A DNA stretch of 64,000 nt from contig NZ_CP082284.1 of NCBI RefSeq assembly GCF_019880225.1, positions 2,542,001-2,606,000 of the forward strand, read 5' to 3'. Below, one piece after another: positions 29,048-50,374 of the stretch; the first letter of the stretch is position 1, and each line of letters starts with the position of its first letter. Source of the DNA: Halobaculum rubrum. GTDB lineage: Archaea; Halobacteriota; Halobacteria; Halobacteriales; Haloferacaceae. The position numbers were made by a program, and so were the translations under genes. The notes beneath the pieces are model-generated. The model saw only the letters and a program-made list of their open reading frames with translations. It ran no database searches and was not told the DNA's origin.

Positions 29048-30298
29048 ATGGTACAGAAGCGAGATGGTTTCGCCGGCCCGACGCGCCGGCGGGTACTGGC
29101 CGCCGGCGCCGCGGCAGCCGGCGGGGCGCTGCTCGGCGGCGCAGCGCCCGCGGCGGCTCAGTCGGGCCCCGACTTCGACGGGTGGTTCGACGACGTCCCC
29201 AACTACGACGGGGTCGTCGACCGGACGGGCCAGTCGGAGGTCACCGTGGAGGTCGGCGTCGAGAACGGCGACGGACCCTACGGCTTCGGCCCGGCAGCCG
29301 TTCGCGTGGACCCGGGAACGACGGTCGTGTGGGAATGGAACGGCCAGGGCGGCTCACACAACGTGATCGCCGAGAACGACCCGTATAGCTACGAGTCCGA
29401 GCTGGTCGCCGAAGCCGGTCACACGTTCAGCCACACCTTCGAGGAGGAGGGAATCTCGAAGTACTTCTGTCAGCCGCACCGCGCGCTCGGCATGAAGGGT
29501 GCGGTCGTCGTCGGCGGAAGCGGCGGTGGTGGAAGCGGCGGCGGAGGCGGATCGGTGTCCGAGCCCGATTTCGACGGCTGGTTCGACGACGTTTCGAACT
29601 ACTCGAGCACCGTCGACGAGCGTGGCCAGTCGGAGGTCACCGTGGAGGTCGGCGTCGAGAACGGCGACGGACCCTACGGCTTCGGTCCGGCGTCCGTCCG
29701 CGTTGACCCGGGAACGACTGTCACGTGGGAATGGAACGGTCAGGGCGGCTCACACAACGTGATCGCCGAGAACGACCCGTACAGCTACGAGTCCGAGTTG
29801 GTCGCCGAGGCCGGCCACACGTTCAGCCACACATTCGAACAGGAGGGCGTCTCGAAGTACTTCTGCCAGCCGCACCGCGCGCTCGGCATGAAGGGTGCGG
29901 TCGTCGTCGGCGACGTCAGCGGCGGCGGCGGTAGTGGCGGCGGCGGTGGCGAGAGCGGCGATGGATCGGCCGAGGGTTCCGGCGGATCGCCGTTCGTTCC
30001 AACCGATTTCAACGGATGGTTCGCGCTCCTGTTCGGCGGCACCATCGCGATGGCCGTCGCCGGCGTGCTCGGCAACGAGGCGTTGGTCGCCTATCGAGAC
30101 CACGCGAGCGCGGAGGAGGCCTACGTTCGAGACAGACCGGTCGAAGCGGTCGAGGAAGAGGCGGAGGTCGAACTCGGCGAGGAGTACAACCCGCTCGGGA
30201 CGGCCGCGCTCGTCGTGGGGTACTTCGTGTTGATCTCGGCGCTGTGGGTCTTCATGTATTTCGTCGAGTACCTCGGCGGTCCGACCATTACTGGGTGA
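29048..30298 (+). CDS. Double halocyanin fused to oxidase-type membrane helices
   Basis: 416 residues. A Tat signal (PTRRRVLAAGAA) is followed by two nearly identical type-1 copper domains: ligands His104, Cys141, His144, Met149 and His236, Cys273, His276, Met281. A Gly/Ser linker separates them and a second Gly/Ser linker leads to two hydrophobic segments (about 323-342 and 384-407). The final segment resembles the small CbaD-type subunit of ba3 oxidase. So it probably hands electrons from the bc-like or other donor to the CuA of CbaB while anchored beside it. First gene of the rightward cba operon, 4 bases before cbaB. Confidence 0.9.
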   Translation: MVQKRDGFAGPTRRRVLAAGAAAAGGALLGGAAPAAAQSGPDFDGWFDDVPNYDGVVDRTGQSEVTVEVGVENGDGPYGFGPAAVRVDPGTTVVWEWNGQGGSHNVIAENDPYSYESELVAEAGHTFSHTFEEEGISKYFCQPHRALGMKGAVVVGGSGGGGSGGGGGSVSEPDFDGWFDDVSNYSSTVDERGQSEVTVEVGVENGDGPYGFGPASVRVDPGTTVTWEWNGQGGSHNVIAENDPYSYESELVAEAGHTFSHTFEQEGVSKYFCQPHRALGMKGAVVVGDVSGGGGSGGGGGESGDGSAEGSGGSPFVPTDFNGWFALLFGGTIAMAVAGVLGNEALVAYRDHASAEEAYVRDRPVEAVEEEAEVELGEEYNPLGTAALVVGYFVLISALWVFMYFVEYLGGPTITG

Positions 30299-30302
30299 AT
30301 CT

Positions 30303-30839
30303 ATGCACGTACACCGATTCGAGAAACTCTGGTTCGGCGCATCGCTCGTCCTGATCGTCGCGTTCATCGGGACCATCGTCTACGGCGCGATCGGCCCCGG
30401 CGTCGCGATGGTCGGCGACGACGGCGGGACGATAGACGCCGCCACCGTGGCCGACGGGGACTTCGGGCAGACGGACAACTTCCGTTCGCCCGGCGTCTAC
30501 GAGTCGAGCGACGGCGATGGCGTCGACGTGTACATCGTCGCTCGACAGTACCTGTTCAATCCCGGAACCGCACAACCGATAGAGGTGCCCAGAGGGGAGG
30601 AAGTTACCTTCCACGTCACCTCAGCGGACGTAACACACGGGTTCAACCTCGCTGGCACGAACGTCAACACGATGGTCATCCCCGGCCAAGTCGCGCGGTT
30701 CGACGTCATGTTCGACGAGACCGGGGAGTACGGGATCGTCTGTCACGAGTACTGCGGGAGCGGACACCACACGATGGCGGGTCAGCTGCACGTCGTGCCG
30801 CAGTCGCAGTTCGATACGACCGCGGGAGGTGACAACTGA
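30303..30839 (+). CDS. cbaB: ba3-type cytochrome oxidase subunit II
   Basis: 178 residues: one N-terminal membrane helix (LWFGASLVLIVAFIGTIVYG) and an external cupredoxin domain with a complete CuA site: His112 (VTHGFNL), then Cys147, Glu149, Cys151, His155, Met158 in CHEYCGSGHHTM. It receives electrons from the halocyanin. It overlaps cbaA by one base (TGATG). Confidence 0.95.
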   Translation: MHVHRFEKLWFGASLVLIVAFIGTIVYGAIGPGVAMVGDDGGTIDAATVADGDFGQTDNFRSPGVYESSDGDGVDVYIVARQYLFNPGTAQPIEVPRGEEVTFHVTSADVTHGFNLAGTNVNTMVIPGQVARFDVMFDETGEYGIVCHEYCGSGHHTMAGQLHVVPQSQFDTTAGGDN

Positions 30840-32596
30840 TGGCGACCGGACACCCGGACGACACGAGTACGCTCAGCGAGGACGACTACGTCGAGACCGA
30901 GGACGGAACCAGACACCGTAGCGCGTTCGTCGATCGATACCCCGAGGCCGCACGGATCGTGCGTATCTGTCTCGGCATCTCGTTCGCCGCGTTCGGCGTC
31001 GGCGCGCTGTTCGGACTGATCCAGGCGCTCCACCGGACGAACGTCCTCCGGGTCATTCCCTCGTCCGACTACTACACGCTCCTGACGGGCCACGGCGTCC
31101 TCCTGGCGTTGGTGTTTACAACGTTCGGCATCGCCGGCCTGTTCCAATGGGCCAGTACGCGGAGCCTCGGTATCGAACCGACGAGTTCCAAGCTGACGGC
31201 GACGTGGCTCGGGATGATGACGGTCGGCACGCTGCTTGCCGCCGGGACGATCCTCGCGGGCTTGTTCGACTGGATCCCGGCCAGCGCCGACGTGCTGTTC
31301 ACGTTCTACGCGCCGCTGAAAGCGCACCCGCTGTTCTACGTGGGCGCGGCGCTGCTCATCGTCGGCTCGTGGTTCGCCGGCGCGAGCTACTTCCTGCAGT
31401 ACCGCGAGTGGCGGTCGGAGAACCCCGACGCGCGCATCCCGCTGCAGTCGTTCATGGTGATGACGACGATGCTGATGTGGTACATCTCGACGCTCGGGGT
31501 GGCCGTGGAGGTCGTCGTCTTCCTCATCCCGTGGTCGCTCGGCCTCATTCAGCAGGTCGACCCGCTGCTCACGCGGACGCTGTTCTGGTACTTCGGACAC
31601 CCGGTCGTGTACTTCTGGCTGCTGCCGGCGTACGTTATCTGGTACACCGTGTTGCCCAAGCTGTCGGGCGGTCGCCTGTTCAGCGACCCGCTCGCTCGTG
31701 TGGTGTTCGTGCTGTTCCTCATCCTCTCGACGCCGGTCGGGTTCCACCACCAGTACACCGACCCCGGGATCGCCTCGGGGTACAAGTTCGTCGCGATGAC
31801 GAACACGTTCTTCCTGCTGTTGCCGTCGCTGTTGACGCTGTTCACGGTCGTCGCCAGTATGGAGCACGGCGCCCGCCAACGCGGCGGCTCGGGCTATCTC
31901 GGCTGGTTGAAGGCGCTGCCGTGGGAGAAGCCGGCGTTCGCCGGGATCGCCCTCTCGGGAATCATGTTCGCCGCCGGCGGCTTCTCGGGCATGATCAACG
32001 CCGGGATGAACATCAACTACCTCATCCACAACACGCTGTGGGTGCCCGGCCACTTCCATCTCACCGTCGGGACCGCGTTCGCGCTCACGCTGATGGCGGT
32101 CTCCTACTGGCTGGTACCACAGGTGACCGGGAAGCGACTCCAGTTGTACGGGGTCGCCTCGCTGCAGCCGTACGTGTGGTTCGTGGGGATGGTGCTGATG
32201 TCGAACGCGATGCACCGCGCCGGCCTCGCGGGCATCCCCCGTCGGACGGCCGAGCCGCAGTACGACCAGTTCAGCTTCCAGGCGGTCGCGGGCAGCGTGG
32301 GCGAGATGCGCATCCAGATCGCCATCGGCGGCACGCTGCTGTTCATCGGGGCCGCGATGTTCCTCGCGGTCATGCTGGCGACGTGGACGATGGGGAAGTC
32401 CAACAGCCAGCTCCGGGTGAACGGGTACCTCCCCGAGCCGATGTCGGGGGCGACGGACTCGCCCCGGGTGCTCGACAATCTGAAGCTGTGGGCCGCCATC
32501 GCGATCGTGCTCGTCGCGCTCGCGTACGGCCTCCCGCTGTTCGACATGGTCGCCGACGGCGTGCTCAGTCCGGGGAGCGTCCCGGTGCCGGCGTAG
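30839..32596 (+). CDS. cbaA: ba3-type cytochrome oxidase subunit I
   Basis: 585 residues with 13 or so membrane helices. Low-spin haem and CuB ligands are visible in GHGVLLALVFTTFG, the cross-linked His-Tyr pair in FGHPVVYFWLLPAY, HHQYTDPG for CuB, and HNTLWVPGHFHLTVG for haem ligands. Type B subunit I (no extra helix pair) lacking the D-channel motif of A-type enzymes. Reduces O2 to water and pumps protons. Follows cbaB by one-base overlap. Confidence 0.96.
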   Translation: MATGHPDDTSTLSEDDYVETEDGTRHRSAFVDRYPEAARIVRICLGISFAAFGVGALFGLIQALHRTNVLRVIPSSDYYTLLTGHGVLLALVFTTFGIAGLFQWASTRSLGIEPTSSKLTATWLGMMTVGTLLAAGTILAGLFDWIPASADVLFTFYAPLKAHPLFYVGAALLIVGSWFAGASYFLQYREWRSENPDARIPLQSFMVMTTMLMWYISTLGVAVEVVVFLIPWSLGLIQQVDPLLTRTLFWYFGHPVVYFWLLPAYVIWYTVLPKLSGGRLFSDPLARVVFVLFLILSTPVGFHHQYTDPGIASGYKFVAMTNTFFLLLPSLLTLFTVVASMEHGARQRGGSGYLGWLKALPWEKPAFAGIALSGIMFAAGGFSGMINAGMNINYLIHNTLWVPGHFHLTVGTAFALTLMAVSYWLVPQVTGKRLQLYGVASLQPYVWFVGMVLMSNAMHRAGLAGIPRRTAEPQYDQFSFQAVAGSVGEMRIQIAIGGTLLFIGAAMFLAVMLATWTMGKSNSQLRVNGYLPEPMSGATDSPRVLDNLKLWAAIAIVLVALAYGLPLFDMVADGVLSPGSVPVPA

Positions 32597-32644: not shown

Positions 32645-33268
32645 ATGACTCCCGACGACTCAGACACGGACGACGTGACCGCACCGCCCGACTCGGCCGC
32701 GGCCGACTCGTCGCGCTCCGACGAGGATCTCGACCGCCGCCGGCTGATCCGGTGGATAGCCGTGCTCGCGTTCGCAGTCCCCGTGATCGTCGAACTGCTC
32801 ACCTTCGGGGGACTGATCGAAAACACGCTCTTCCCCGGCGGCGACGGTGATACCGGCGGAACGGCGACTGACGGCACCGAAACGGCGACGGCGACGCCCG
32901 GCGAAGACGCCGTCGGCGTCGGCGACGAACTCCTCCCGGACGAACCGACGGTCGAGACTGTCGAGGTCTCGGAGGTCAGAGGCGAGTCGGCCAGCTCACG
33001 GACCTACGTGCTCCGCGTGGCCGTCGAGAACACGACCGAGAACTCCGTCGAACTCCGCCTCACGGGTGTCACCCTCCGCGACGGGGCGTCCCTCGAGAGC
33101 GTCTCGACGACGGGAGCGATCCCGGCCGGCGGGGCCGGCGAAGTGACCGGTGCCTGGGGACTCCCGACCGACTCGATGCCCGTCGCCGTCGACGTCGTGT
33201 TGCTGCGAGACGGCGACGAGTCGACGTCGCGATCGGTCCCGCTGAAGCGGCCACCCATCCGTGGCTGA
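32645..33268 (+). CDS. Membrane-anchored protein downstream of cbaA
   Basis: 207 residues: acidic cytoplasmic N-terminus, one membrane helix (about 36-58), a Gly/Thr-rich linker and a C-terminal beta domain with TYVLRVAVENTTENSVELRL, resembling haloarchaeal Ig-like surface domains. The gene starts 48 bases after cbaA and is in the same direction, so it could be an assembly or accessory factor. Function unknown. Confidence 0.7.
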   Translation: MTPDDSDTDDVTAPPDSAAADSSRSDEDLDRRRLIRWIAVLAFAVPVIVELLTFGGLIENTLFPGGDGDTGGTATDGTETATATPGEDAVGVGDELLPDEPTVETVEVSEVRGESASSRTYVLRVAVENTTENSVELRLTGVTLRDGASLESVSTTGAIPAGGAGEVTGAWGLPTDSMPVAVDVVLLRDGDESTSRSVPLKRPPIRG

Positions 33269-33412
33269 ACGGCCGAGCCCCGCAGCGGTTCGTCCCACGT
33301 ACGGGACTGAACCATCGATATTTAACTGCGTAGGGGCCGTACCGTGTATAATGTCACGCCTCTATAGAGATTTCAGCCGCTTTCCTATACCGGCGTATCC
33401 GGGGGTCGTCTG

Positions 33413-35638
33413 GTGAGCGGGCCCAACTCCGACGACGTTCGGGCCACCGAGGCCGTCGACGTTCCCGTCGATGGAACGGTTCACTTCGACGCCTCGATCC
33501 GGTTCCGTGATCTCGATGCAGGCGCGGCGGCGGTTCTCGGACTCGATCCGGCCCAGGTCGACGACGAGGACATCCTCGCTCGGCTGTCGCGTTCGCCGGC
33601 CAGAACGCGGGAAGCCCTCCGGTCCGTTGTGGAGACGGGGCGACCGACGTCGATCGAGTGGGAAGTCAGCGTCACCGGCCCGGGAGGGTGGGCGTGGGCA
33701 GTCCCCGCTACGGAGGGCGTTTCGGTACTTCTCGTCGTCGACGATCGGGAACCGAGCGACGAGACAGTCGACCCCGAAACTGAGGAGGACGGCGTCGCGT
33801 CGGCGATGGGGTCGTCCTCGGAGGCGGCAAACCGGCTCCTCGCGCACACGGAGGCGTTGGCGCGCACCGGCGGTTGGGAGTACGACATCGAGTCCGAGAC
33901 GCTCACGTGGACCGCGGGAACCAAACGGATCCACGGCGTCGCCCCCGACTTCGATCCGACCATCGAGCAGGCGCTGTCCTTCTATCACCCGGACGACCGC
34001 GAGAGGGTCCGCGAGTCGGTGATGCGGGCCGTCGATGCCGGCGAGTCGTACGAGACGGTGGCTCGAATCTTCACCCCCGACGGGAAACGGTGCTGGGTTC
34101 GGACCATCGGTGAACCGGTCGAGCGTGACGGCGAGGTTACCGCGGTTCGCGGCGCGATCCAGGATATCACCGAAACCCGCGAACAGGAGCAGCAGATCGA
34201 GTTGCTTCGGCGGGCGATCGATGCCGCACCCCTCGGCGTGACGCTCGCGGACATGCGTCGCGACGAGGAACCGCTCGTGTACGTGAACGACGCGTTCGAG
34301 GACCTCACGGGGTACTGCGAGGCCGAGTCGATCGGTCGGAACTGTCGCTTCCTCCAGGGTGACGAGACGGATCCCGAAACGGTCGCGAAGCTCCGGGCGG
34401 CCATCGAGGCCGAAGAGTCGGCGACGGTGACGATCCGCAACTACCGCGCCGATGGGACACCCTTCTGGAATCGGCTGACGATCGCCCCCGTCGCCGACTC
34501 GGGGGGGACGGTGACCCACTACGTCGGCTTCCAGACGGACGTGACCGAGCGGCGGGACGTGGAGTCCAAACTCCGCGAGTTCGAGCGCGCCGTCGAGCAC
34601 TCCGGACATGCCATCTACATCACCGACCTCGACGGGACGATCACCTACGTCAATCAAAGCTTCGTGGACCTTACCGGGTACGGGTACGACGAGGCGGTCG
34701 GCGAGACGCCGCGGATACTCAACTCCGGTCGGATGGACGACGACTACTTCGAGCACCTGTGGAATACGATCCTCGACGGCGAGACGTTCGAGGAACGTGT
34801 CATCGACAAGGACAGCGACGGGCACATCTATCGCGCCCACCAGACGATCGCACCGCTCACTGACGAGCGCGGGACGGTGACGGGCTTCGTCGCCGTTCAG
34901 ACGGATATCACCGACCGTATCGAGCGTTCCCAGCAGATCGCCGTGTTGGATCGCGTCCTCCGACACAACCTCAGAAACGACATGAACATCGTCCTCGGCC
35001 ACGCGGAGAAACTCAGCCAACGGCTCGAGGGCGACCTCGCAGGTTCGGCGGAGACGATCGCGTCGACCGGACGCGGTCTCCTCGAGCTGGCCGACAAAGA
35101 GCGGATGGTCGTCGAACACCTCTCGATGAACGACGAGACCGATCGCCACGAGGTGCGACCGATGGTGAGATCGCTGGTCGACGAGCTCTCGGAGCGGTAT
35201 CCGACCGCGGAGTTCACCACCGACTGCCCGACCGATCTCGCGGTGAACGCGACGTCGCAGCTCCCGGAGGCTATCGAGGAGTTCATCGAGAACGCCGTCG
35301 AGCACGCCGACGATCCGTCCCCCTCCGTCGAGATCACGGCCGCACCTGTCGTCGATAGCGAGAGTTCGGCCGCCACCGCCGTCGCACCCGGTTCAACCGA
35401 CGACGCCGACACGGTCCGTATTTCCATCGCCGACCGCGGGCCGGGGATCCCGGCATCGGTACGGGATCTCGTGTCCAGTGATTACGTCCCGGACTCGTTG
35501 ACACACACCGACGGGATCGGACTGTGGCTTGCGAGTTGGATCGTCACGCAATCGGGCGGGTCGATCGACTTCGAGGACCGCGAGGCGGGCGGAACGGTCG
35601 TGCACGTCACGCTCCCGTCGGCGACCGTGCCCGAGTGA
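33413..35638 (+). CDS. PAS-LOV-PAS sensor histidine kinase (LOV photoreceptor type)
   Basis: 741 residues, soluble. N-terminal part (1-135) is unassigned; a PAS domain at about 145-255 (GGWEYDIESETLTWT); a LOV domain at about 262-380 with the canonical flavin motif GRNCRFLQG, Cys311 being the residue that makes the flavin adduct, plus Asn343 and Asn353 and Gln374 (GFQTDVTE) flavin contacts; a second PAS (390-500) with TGYGYDEAVGETPRILNSGR; HisKA with H-box VLRHNLRND (His518); HATPase with N-box FIENAVEHA, DRGPGIP and DGIGLWLASW. No response-regulator gene adjoins. GTG 33413 is the first start. Confidence 0.9.
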   Translation: MSGPNSDDVRATEAVDVPVDGTVHFDASIRFRDLDAGAAAVLGLDPAQVDDEDILARLSRSPARTREALRSVVETGRPTSIEWEVSVTGPGGWAWAVPATEGVSVLLVVDDREPSDETVDPETEEDGVASAMGSSSEAANRLLAHTEALARTGGWEYDIESETLTWTAGTKRIHGVAPDFDPTIEQALSFYHPDDRERVRESVMRAVDAGESYETVARIFTPDGKRCWVRTIGEPVERDGEVTAVRGAIQDITETREQEQQIELLRRAIDAAPLGVTLADMRRDEEPLVYVNDAFEDLTGYCEAESIGRNCRFLQGDETDPETVAKLRAAIEAEESATVTIRNYRADGTPFWNRLTIAPVADSGGTVTHYVGFQTDVTERRDVESKLREFERAVEHSGHAIYITDLDGTITYVNQSFVDLTGYGYDEAVGETPRILNSGRMDDDYFEHLWNTILDGETFEERVIDKDSDGHIYRAHQTIAPLTDERGTVTGFVAVQTDITDRIERSQQIAVLDRVLRHNLRNDMNIVLGHAEKLSQRLEGDLAGSAETIASTGRGLLELADKERMVVEHLSMNDETDRHEVRPMVRSLVDELSERYPTAEFTTDCPTDLAVNATSQLPEAIEEFIENAVEHADDPSPSVEITAAPVVDSESSAATAVAPGSTDDADTVRISIADRGPGIPASVRDLVSSDYVPDSLTHTDGIGLWLASWIVTQSGGSIDFEDREAGGTVVHVTLPSATVPE

Positions 35639-48722: not shown

Positions 48723-48742
48723 CCCACGGCTAAAGCCGTGGG
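48723..48742 (-). repeat. Right-end hairpin of the IS element
   Basis: Perfect 8-base stem with TAAA loop overlapping the tnpB stop (TAG at 48732-48730). In IS200/IS605 elements such hairpins are recognised by TnpA; here it is also the likely 3' end of an omega RNA. Confidence 0.75.
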
Positions 48743-49884
48743 GTTCCCCCACTGGGGGTTAAATCCACACGTAGCGGGAGGTTCGCAGGTTCGTCGTCAC
48801 AGGGGACGATGACCTGCGTTTCGGGCTGTGCCAGTACAGCCCCCGCCTCGGACAGCGGTTTCGAGAACTTGCCCAAGGCTCGTTTGCCGATGTTCAGCGC
48901 ACCGTTCTTGTCTGCGTTGTCGTCAAGTCCACATTCGGGACATTCGAAGCGTCCCTGCGTCTCACGGACACCTTCGCAGGCACAGCGGTTACACGTCTTC
49001 GATGTGTCGTATTCCTCAACTAACTGTACGTCGATGCCCGCGTCGTGGGCCTTGTACTCGATGTAGTTCAGCAGGCGGGCGAACGGCATCTTGTGGGTCT
49101 TGTCGTTGACGTACCGCCCTTTGTCGTTGTCCTTGCGAATCCCACCGAGATCGCCCACGACGATAACCGCGTTCCGTTCTTCAGCATCTTCAACGACGGA
49201 ACGAGCAATCTTATGGAGGCGGTCGTCCACCTTCCGTGCTTCCGCGTCACCGATCCGCTCGACCACCTGCTGTCCCTGTCGAGGTTTCGCCTTCCCGATG
49301 GACTTCCGCAGTTGCTTGTAGTGTTCGCGGATGCGACGAACTTCCTCGCCGTAGAACGTGGTTTTGCGGTCGGAAAGGAACGCACAGGTAGCGACCCAGC
49401 GTGCGCCCATGTCGATAGCCAGCACGTCGTCGTACTCGTCTTGGACAGTCACAGACCGTTTGACGACGAGGTGGACGTACCAGTCACCGTCACGACGCAC
49501 CAGCTCGCTGTCCCGAATGTCGCCCTCACGGACAAGTTGTTCGTCTTTTTTCGGGATGTGCGCGGGACACCAGATGGAGTTGCCCTGTCCCCGCTCGGGG
49601 TCGTAGACGGGGACTTTCATCCACCACGACGAGAGAACGGTATCCTCGTCGCAGGTCACGTCGAACACGTCGTTGCGGAGGACGACGGGTTGTTCGGTGT
49701 CGGGGTTCGGGTCTTTTTGTCGCTGAACTTTCGACGCCTGCCGGTCGGTCGCAGAGTACAGGTCGGCGTTTCCGCCGTGTACCTCGGTCTGGAACGCCTC
49801 GTACTCACGGACGAGTAGGTCAGCCTTCCTGTTGGTCAGCGAGTGGAGTTTGACCCGCACCGTGGTTGAGACGCTCCGTTGCAT
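48730..49884 (-). CDS. tnpB: TnpB (IS605 OrfB) RNA-guided nuclease
   Basis: 384 residues. RuvC-I Asp158 in LAIDMGARW; RuvC-III Asp325 in DKNGALNIG; zinc finger Cys298/301/315/318 (CNRC, CPEC). At RuvC-II the usual acidic residue before the Asp-Leu is replaced: VVGDLGGI has Gly244 where E is common. Starts 2 bases after tnpA. Length and order (N-terminal beta-rich region, RuvC split, zinc finger) are normal for the clade. Confidence 0.93.
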   Translation of the reverse strand: MQRSVSTTVRVKLHSLTNRKADLLVREYEAFQTEVHGGNADLYSATDRQASKVQRQKDPNPDTEQPVVLRNDVFDVTCDEDTVLSSWWMKVPVYDPERGQGNSIWCPAHIPKKDEQLVREGDIRDSELVRRDGDWYVHLVVKRSVTVQDEYDDVLAIDMGARWVATCAFLSDRKTTFYGEEVRRIREHYKQLRKSIGKAKPRQGQQVVERIGDAEARKVDDRLHKIARSVVEDAEERNAVIVVGDLGGIRKDNDKGRYVNDKTHKMPFARLLNYIEYKAHDAGIDVQLVEEYDTSKTCNRCACEGVRETQGRFECPECGLDDNADKNGALNIGKRALGKFSKPLSEAGAVLAQPETQVIVPCDDEPANLPLRVDLTPSGGTPRL

Positions 49885-49886
49885 GA

Positions 49887-50276
49887 CTACTCACCTGCTT
49901 GGGCGTCGATGTACTCCTCGATGACTTCGCTGGATACGTCGCCCGCACTTGAGACGAAGTACGAGCGTGTCCACAGCGACGGCAGGCCGAAATCAAACTC
50001 GTCACGGAGCTGGCGCGAGGAGTAGCCCTTGACTTGTTGCATTATCTTGTTTGGGGCGAGCGTCGGGTCGCCCGTGATGAACAAGTGTACGTGGTCGGGT
50101 CGAATCGCCAACTCCAAGATTTCGAGGTCGAGTTCGTCGGCCTTGTCCTCGATGAGTTCTTCGAGGCGATCACGTACCTCTCCCTCAAGCACCGATTTAC
50201 GGTACTTCGGGCACCAGATGAAGTGGTACTGGAGTTTGTGGACGTTGGTACGTTCCCTGTCGAACCCACGAGGCAT
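49887..50276 (-). CDS. tnpA: TnpA, IS200-family Y1 transposase
   Basis: 129 residues from ATG 50276; ATG 50300 adds eight. The HUH motif is DHVHLFIT and the catalytic tyrosine lies in VIEEYIDAQ. A single-strand transposase that cuts at the two hairpin ends. Just upstream of tnpB in the same direction. Confidence 0.95.
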   Translation of the reverse strand: MPRGFDRERTNVHKLQYHFIWCPKYRKSVLEGEVRDRLEELIEDKADELDLEILELAIRPDHVHLFITGDPTLAPNKIMQQVKGYSSRQLRDEFDFGLPSLWTRSYFVSSAGDVSSEVIEEYIDAQAGE

Positions 50277-50374
50277 CGTCAGTATATAGATACTATTCAC
50301 CTAAAGATGTTACGCAATCATCTAACCCCACCCGTGCCAACGAGCGTAGACAGGTTCCCAGTTGTCGGCTTCAT

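Follow-up and report, generated by a model that had tools for sequence, protein, structure and literature searches.

The kinase gene, its domains and its N-terminus

The window analysed here is a 64,000-nucleotide stretch of the Halobaculum rubrum genome (contig NZ_CP082284.1, positions 2,542,001 to 2,606,000). Downstream of a cytochrome oxidase cluster it carries an unbroken open reading frame for a histidine kinase with a LOV domain; the genes and domains are as follows.

29048-30298, + strand: halocyanin gene, upstream of the kinase and on the same strand
30303-30839, + strand: COX2 (Pfam)
30839-32596, + strand: COX1, b(o/a)3-type cytochrome oxidase subunit I (Pfam)
32645-33268, + strand: gene for a small 207-aa protein of the oxidase cluster
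33413-35638, + strand: LOV histidine kinase gene, 741 aa, GTG start, PAS-PAS-LOV-PAS-DHp-CA
33470-33742, + strand: predicted compact N-terminal PAS domain (residues 20-110; AF2 and Foldseek; conserved in aligned orthologues)
33866-34165, + strand: second PAS domain, PAS_3 type (residues 152-251; Pfam PAS_3 at 164-248; AF2)
34211-34552, + strand: LOV domain (residues 267-380; PDB LOV matches with E down to 3.5e-37; pocket residues conserved)
34334-34357, + strand: adduct motif GRNCRFLQ (residues 308-315), Cys311 codon TGT at 34343-34345; Cys in 36 of 38 aligned homologues
34580-34918, + strand: third ordinary PAS domain (residues 390-502; Pfam PAS; AF2), with RILNSG at the place of the LOV cysteine
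34910-35125, + strand: dimerisation/phosphoacceptor (DHp) helices (residues 500-571; long AF2 helices 500-537 and 541-571)
34964-34966, + strand: codon of the phosphoacceptor H518 in RHNLRND; His in 37/37 aligned rows with a residue there
35138-35620, + strand: ATP-binding (CA) domain (residues 576-736; Pfam HATPase_c, E 2.3e-12)

The GTG start aligns with the starts of the orthologues, which are of similar length. Within the family these were found in Halobaculum halobium (G011), Haloferax profundi (G034) and three further genomes (G012, G015 and G162); their identity is 50-64% in one search and 45-62% by BLAST. A 1201-aa open reading frame in G015 was rejected as a fusion, its upstream part having no counterpart in the orthologues. 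Plasmid records name the orthologue and its relatives just 'PAS domain S-box protein' or 'PAS domain-containing protein', so that a probable light sensor lies hidden in the annotation.

Pfam finds three PAS domains and HATPase_c on the 741-aa protein. An AlphaFold2 model of the full protein, built with 38 aligned sequences, has a mean pLDDT of 81 and a pTM of 0.40, which makes the domains reliable but not their arrangement. The model contains four PAS-type domains in series, two long helices and an ATPase domain, giving the architecture listed above. The additional domain lies at residues 20-110, for which a Pfam search returned no match. Here the strands and helices of the model succeed one another as in a PAS fold, mostly at pLDDT 75-95, and when the segment was modelled alone its Foldseek matches were PAS domains, including 3fc7, from a Haloarcula marismortui protein that is HTR-like (target-length TM-score 0.73, at a modest E of about 3e-3). 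On the model, this segment is a fourth, divergent PAS fold missed by sequence profiles. The original prediction had left the N-terminal 135 residues without assignment and had described a PAS-LOV-PAS kinase; the LOV domain does lie between PAS domains, but one more PAS precedes them, and the formerly missing N-terminus is now resolved as a predicted PAS domain.

The LOV domain and its flavin pocket

The best PDB sequence matches are to LOV proteins, 6hmj (E 3.5e-37) and 4gcz (E 3.7e-35), and therefore identity as a LOV domain is beyond chance; against solved blue-light receptors the E-values span 1e-34 to 1e-37. The NCBIfam YtvA model also matches (E 1.7e-60), with a whole-protein score of 204.6 under its cut-off of 250, and the NCBIfam equivalog BluLightHisKinLov scores 173.4 under a curated cut-off of 450; both fall short, as expected for the same LOV domain in another architecture. 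In a fold search with the whole model, NifL came first and the LOV-kinase structures 6ph4, 8a52 and 4gcz ranked near the top.

The full set of photochemical residues is present. Both the GRNCRFLQ flavin-adduct motif with Cys311 and the conserved Asn and Gln contacts that had been claimed for this gene were found. The flavin contacts Arg312, Gln315, Arg328, Asn343, Asn353 and Gln374 are kept across the six-member orthologue group, in which Cys311 is conserved in 6/6 members and the pocket positions checked are near-identical. Two positions depart from YtvA: residue 279 is Ala (Val in one member of the group) instead of Thr, and residue 286 is Glu in the group instead of Asn. In the alignment, 6hmj, the sequence-nearest solved protein and an RNA-binding LOV receptor by its PDB description, has Ala and Gln at these places. 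Since it shares Ala279 and a residue other than Asn at 286, such substitutions in the pocket are not bound to abolish photochemistry.

Tyr370 occupies the place of a Phe in bacterial and eukaryotic LOV domains. PMC12202551 describes a Tyr at this position for archaeal LOV domains, and with FWNR, YRAD and Tyr370 the window domain fits the pattern of archaeal group A as given there. The flavin-quenching effect of such aromatic residues is discussed in PMC12202551 and PMC4682037; Tyr370 could quench the flavin, which counts against a photoactive reading. Judged from its sequence, the LOV domain is nevertheless very likely photoactive, and the earlier proposal of a probable blue-light receptor is backed by anatomy and conservation, namely the PDB LOV matches and the pocket kept in the orthologues.

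Proposed signal output and alternative readings

In the aligned homologues the motifs of the CA domain are conserved (N box ENAVEH, G1 DRGPGIP, G2 GIGLWL). The phosphoacceptor helix is less conventional. Pfam HisKA gives 11.6 bits on the protein against a cut-off of 26.9, with H518 conserved and helical; the helix is of a haloarchaeal HNLRN type, found in almost every one of 37 aligned homologues, and H518 is followed by Asn (35/37 aligned rows) and not by Glu or Asp. The phosphoacceptors of Brucella LOV-HK, EL346 and YF1 are of types other than that of the window kinase. A kinase half described beforehand as complete is thus borne out for HATPase_c and the N, G1 and G2 boxes, while the phosphoacceptor helix, of the HNLRN type, scores under the Pfam HisKA cut-off. 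When the 14 receiver domains of the genome were mapped, none lay in the 64-kb window, so there is no linked response regulator there. With 38 HATPase_c matches in the genome against these 14 receivers, an unlinked regulator is to be expected, in agreement with what had been suggested.

Taken together, the gene product is probably a cytoplasmic LOV histidine kinase that is photoactive via Cys311 and passes its phosphoryl group to an unlinked regulator. Its kinase output is proposed from the domains described above, and flavin binding, the light adduct, the direction of the switch and the phosphotransfer partner are modelled on studied LOV histidine kinases. By that analogy, the LOV domain in the dark would hold oxidised FMN (or FAD), and blue light would link Cys311 covalently to flavin C4a, with N5 protonated. 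Gln374 would rearrange, and the resulting strain would run along helix 378-395 to the PAS domain that follows it and on to the helix leading into the DHp bundle. As the bundle changes, the kinase/phosphatase balance at H518 would shift, and the phosphoryl group would move to a response regulator, one of a small number whose genes lie elsewhere. The remaining three PAS domains probably tune the response or integrate further cues.

The genomic neighbourhood allows another reading, in which the kinase gene belongs to the ba3-oxidase operon and its output is light control of that oxidase. The kinase is codirectional with the cluster and starts about 145 bp past its small 207-aa gene, and the same oxidase-kinase order recurs on a 464-kb plasmid of Halobaculum halobium. 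The 207-aa gene is present in 30/30 related COX1 loci, however, and the kinase lies behind it in only two of these (the window and H. halobium), being missing from the other 28; G012 and G015 have the kinase on another contig than the oxidase, and the intergenic stretch ahead of the kinase is poorly conserved. On a single contig of G162 some 11 kb separate kinase from oxidase, which was judged too loose for linkage. Given the two clusters in 30 and the separate contigs, we read the kinase as adjacent to the oxidase cluster without being a conserved member of it. We consider light control of this oxidase very improbable, and the ba3 oxidase was rejected as a general functional partner. A ATATTTAA box at 33318, within the poorly conserved region, is compatible with a promoter of the kinase's own; a scan of the kinase region with sigma-70 promoter and terminator models gave nothing, such models being unsuited to archaea. 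The oxidase linkage in two genomes would also fit a flavin domain that is chiefly a redox or oxygen sensor, like NifL or the cysteine-less haloarchaeal BAT-LOV, with the light reaction secondary. NifL ranks first in the fold search, three of the nine LOV-like domains of the genome are without the cysteine, and BAT-LOV*, a haloarchaeal LOV without it, binds flavin and responds to flavin reduction (PMC4682037). Cys311 and its neighbours are retained across all six orthologue-group members, though, which would be unnecessary in a pure redox sensor; as the oxidase linkage is not general either, a mainly redox function appears unlikely.

The non-canonical phosphoacceptor raises the question of whether a photoactive LOV domain is joined to a C-terminal half that is not a classical autokinase and acts as a phosphatase or phosphotransfer hub. 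A HisKA score under the Pfam cut-off and HNLRN in place of HE point in this direction, as does a Methanosarcina kinase type without an H-box that lacks autokinase activity (PMC11784639). In that same work, however, the tested types with an H-box histidine are autokinases, and the window kinase's family conserves both H518 and the motifs of the ATPase domain, which leaves this reading improbable.

LOV proteins in the genome and in known systems

A likely blue-light receptor in an organism usually thought to sense light through rhodopsins, as it had been put, hints at a surprise that comparison across the class does not bear out. The exact NCRFLQG pattern was found in the DNA of 308 of 391 Halobacteria genomes and a reversed control pattern in 0. 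A 2014 catalogue of archaeal LOV kinases covers 167 proteins from 85 species (PMC4844311). An archaeal LOV domain, ALovD-1 of Halonotius, was characterised in 2025 and is photoactive at 3 M salt (PMC12202551). The window kinase is of a kind that most of its relatives were already known to possess, and a claim of novelty is weak. With it, a widespread haloarchaeal group gains a clean and complete LOV kinase; to our knowledge, no full-length kinase of that group has been tested.

This genome has six copies of the NCRFLQG pattern, and at least six copies occur in 5 of the 391 genomes (hand count of the table). Its nine LOV-like domains comprise six with Cys and three in which His, Pro or Leu (one case of each) takes its place, and it encodes five rhodopsins. 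A LOV-domain tree, built on few columns, did not place the cysteine loss among the paralogues. Outside the window, a LOV(Cys)-GAF-BAT-HTH_10 regulator gene (contig C1 of this genome, 2318228-2320102; locus L011, 4229-6103) lies directly 5' of a rhodopsin gene whose sequence has a proton-pump pattern. Among its best 30 homologues in 242 genomes, itself included (L124-L153), the cysteine is kept in 30/30, and in 23 a proton-pump-type rhodopsin lies on the 3' side at a distance of at most 1.5 kb. Direct blue-light use by Bat for rhodopsin has been called not definitively established (PMC4682037); LOV-Bat beside a rhodopsin makes direct light sensing by Bat testable, and more sharply than the window gene does. 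Another Bat, near bacteriorhodopsin, has His for the LOV cysteine (GANHRFLQ; C1 2479996-2482044, L013).

A KaiC-like ATPase gene and a second LOV histidine kinase gene, the latter at C1 2617546-2619768, overlap by 4 nt (ATGA) and together span C1 2616032-2619768 (L009, 3033-6769; see also L093-L106); a further PAS kinase follows. All seven closest KaiC homologues (at least 84% identity, this genome included) show the overlap and an intact NCRFLQ. At more distant KaiC clusters the following kinases start alike N-terminally, and LOV is absent or cysteine-less in most. The LOV-Bat/rhodopsin and KaiC/LOV-kinase loci merit their own study above the window gene. A larger scheme is conceivable but doubtful, in which the window kinase would be one input to an unusually large blue-light and flavin network made up of the six Cys and three Cys-less LOV-like domains beside the five rhodopsins. 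Several LOV kinases with different PAS sets would converge on a few unlinked regulators, and LOV-Bat and the KaiC-coupled LOV kinases would set pump rhodopsin expression and timing.

Further LOV genes were also recorded. A different LOV kinase gene, with REC-PAS-LOV-GAF-kinase order and an intact Cys (genome 2539860-2542127), reaches into the window with its 3' end, at positions 1-127. A 413-aa PAS-LOV-PAS protein (C1 2094872-2096113, L010) ends soon after its H-box, has no ATPase domain and may be either a truncated gene or a phosphotransfer protein, and a short LOV-like protein of 182 aa has Leu for the cysteine (GENLRLLQ; C1 2644867-2645415, L016). Elsewhere in the window, adjoining open reading frames at 48730-50300 resemble, judged by eye, a transposase pair of the IS200/IS605 type.

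Like the catalogued archaeal LOV kinases (PMC4844311), the window protein combines LOV, PAS domains and a histidine kinase in Halobacteria; it appears to differ in its PAS-PAS-LOV-PAS order and its profile-invisible N-terminal PAS. With ALovD-1 it shares a halophilic archaeal LOV domain, here with group A features, whereas ALovD-1 was studied as a domain, with no kinase output reported in the accessible part of PMC12202551. BAT-LOV* of haloarchaeal Bat (PMC4682037; Yee et al.) is likewise a haloarchaeal LOV-like flavin domain, but it has Pro for the adduct Cys and belongs to a transcription factor and not a kinase; by Pfam, the window protein lacks BAT and HTH_10 domains, which two other LOV proteins encoded in the genome do have. 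Brucella LOV-HK, EL346 and YF1 (6ph4, 4r3a and 4gcz) are bacterial or engineered, and their constructs have no PAS ahead of LOV. As proposed for the window kinase, their LOV domains signal via a helix or PAS to a histidine kinase, and Brucella LOV-HK shares the LOV-PAS-HK order.
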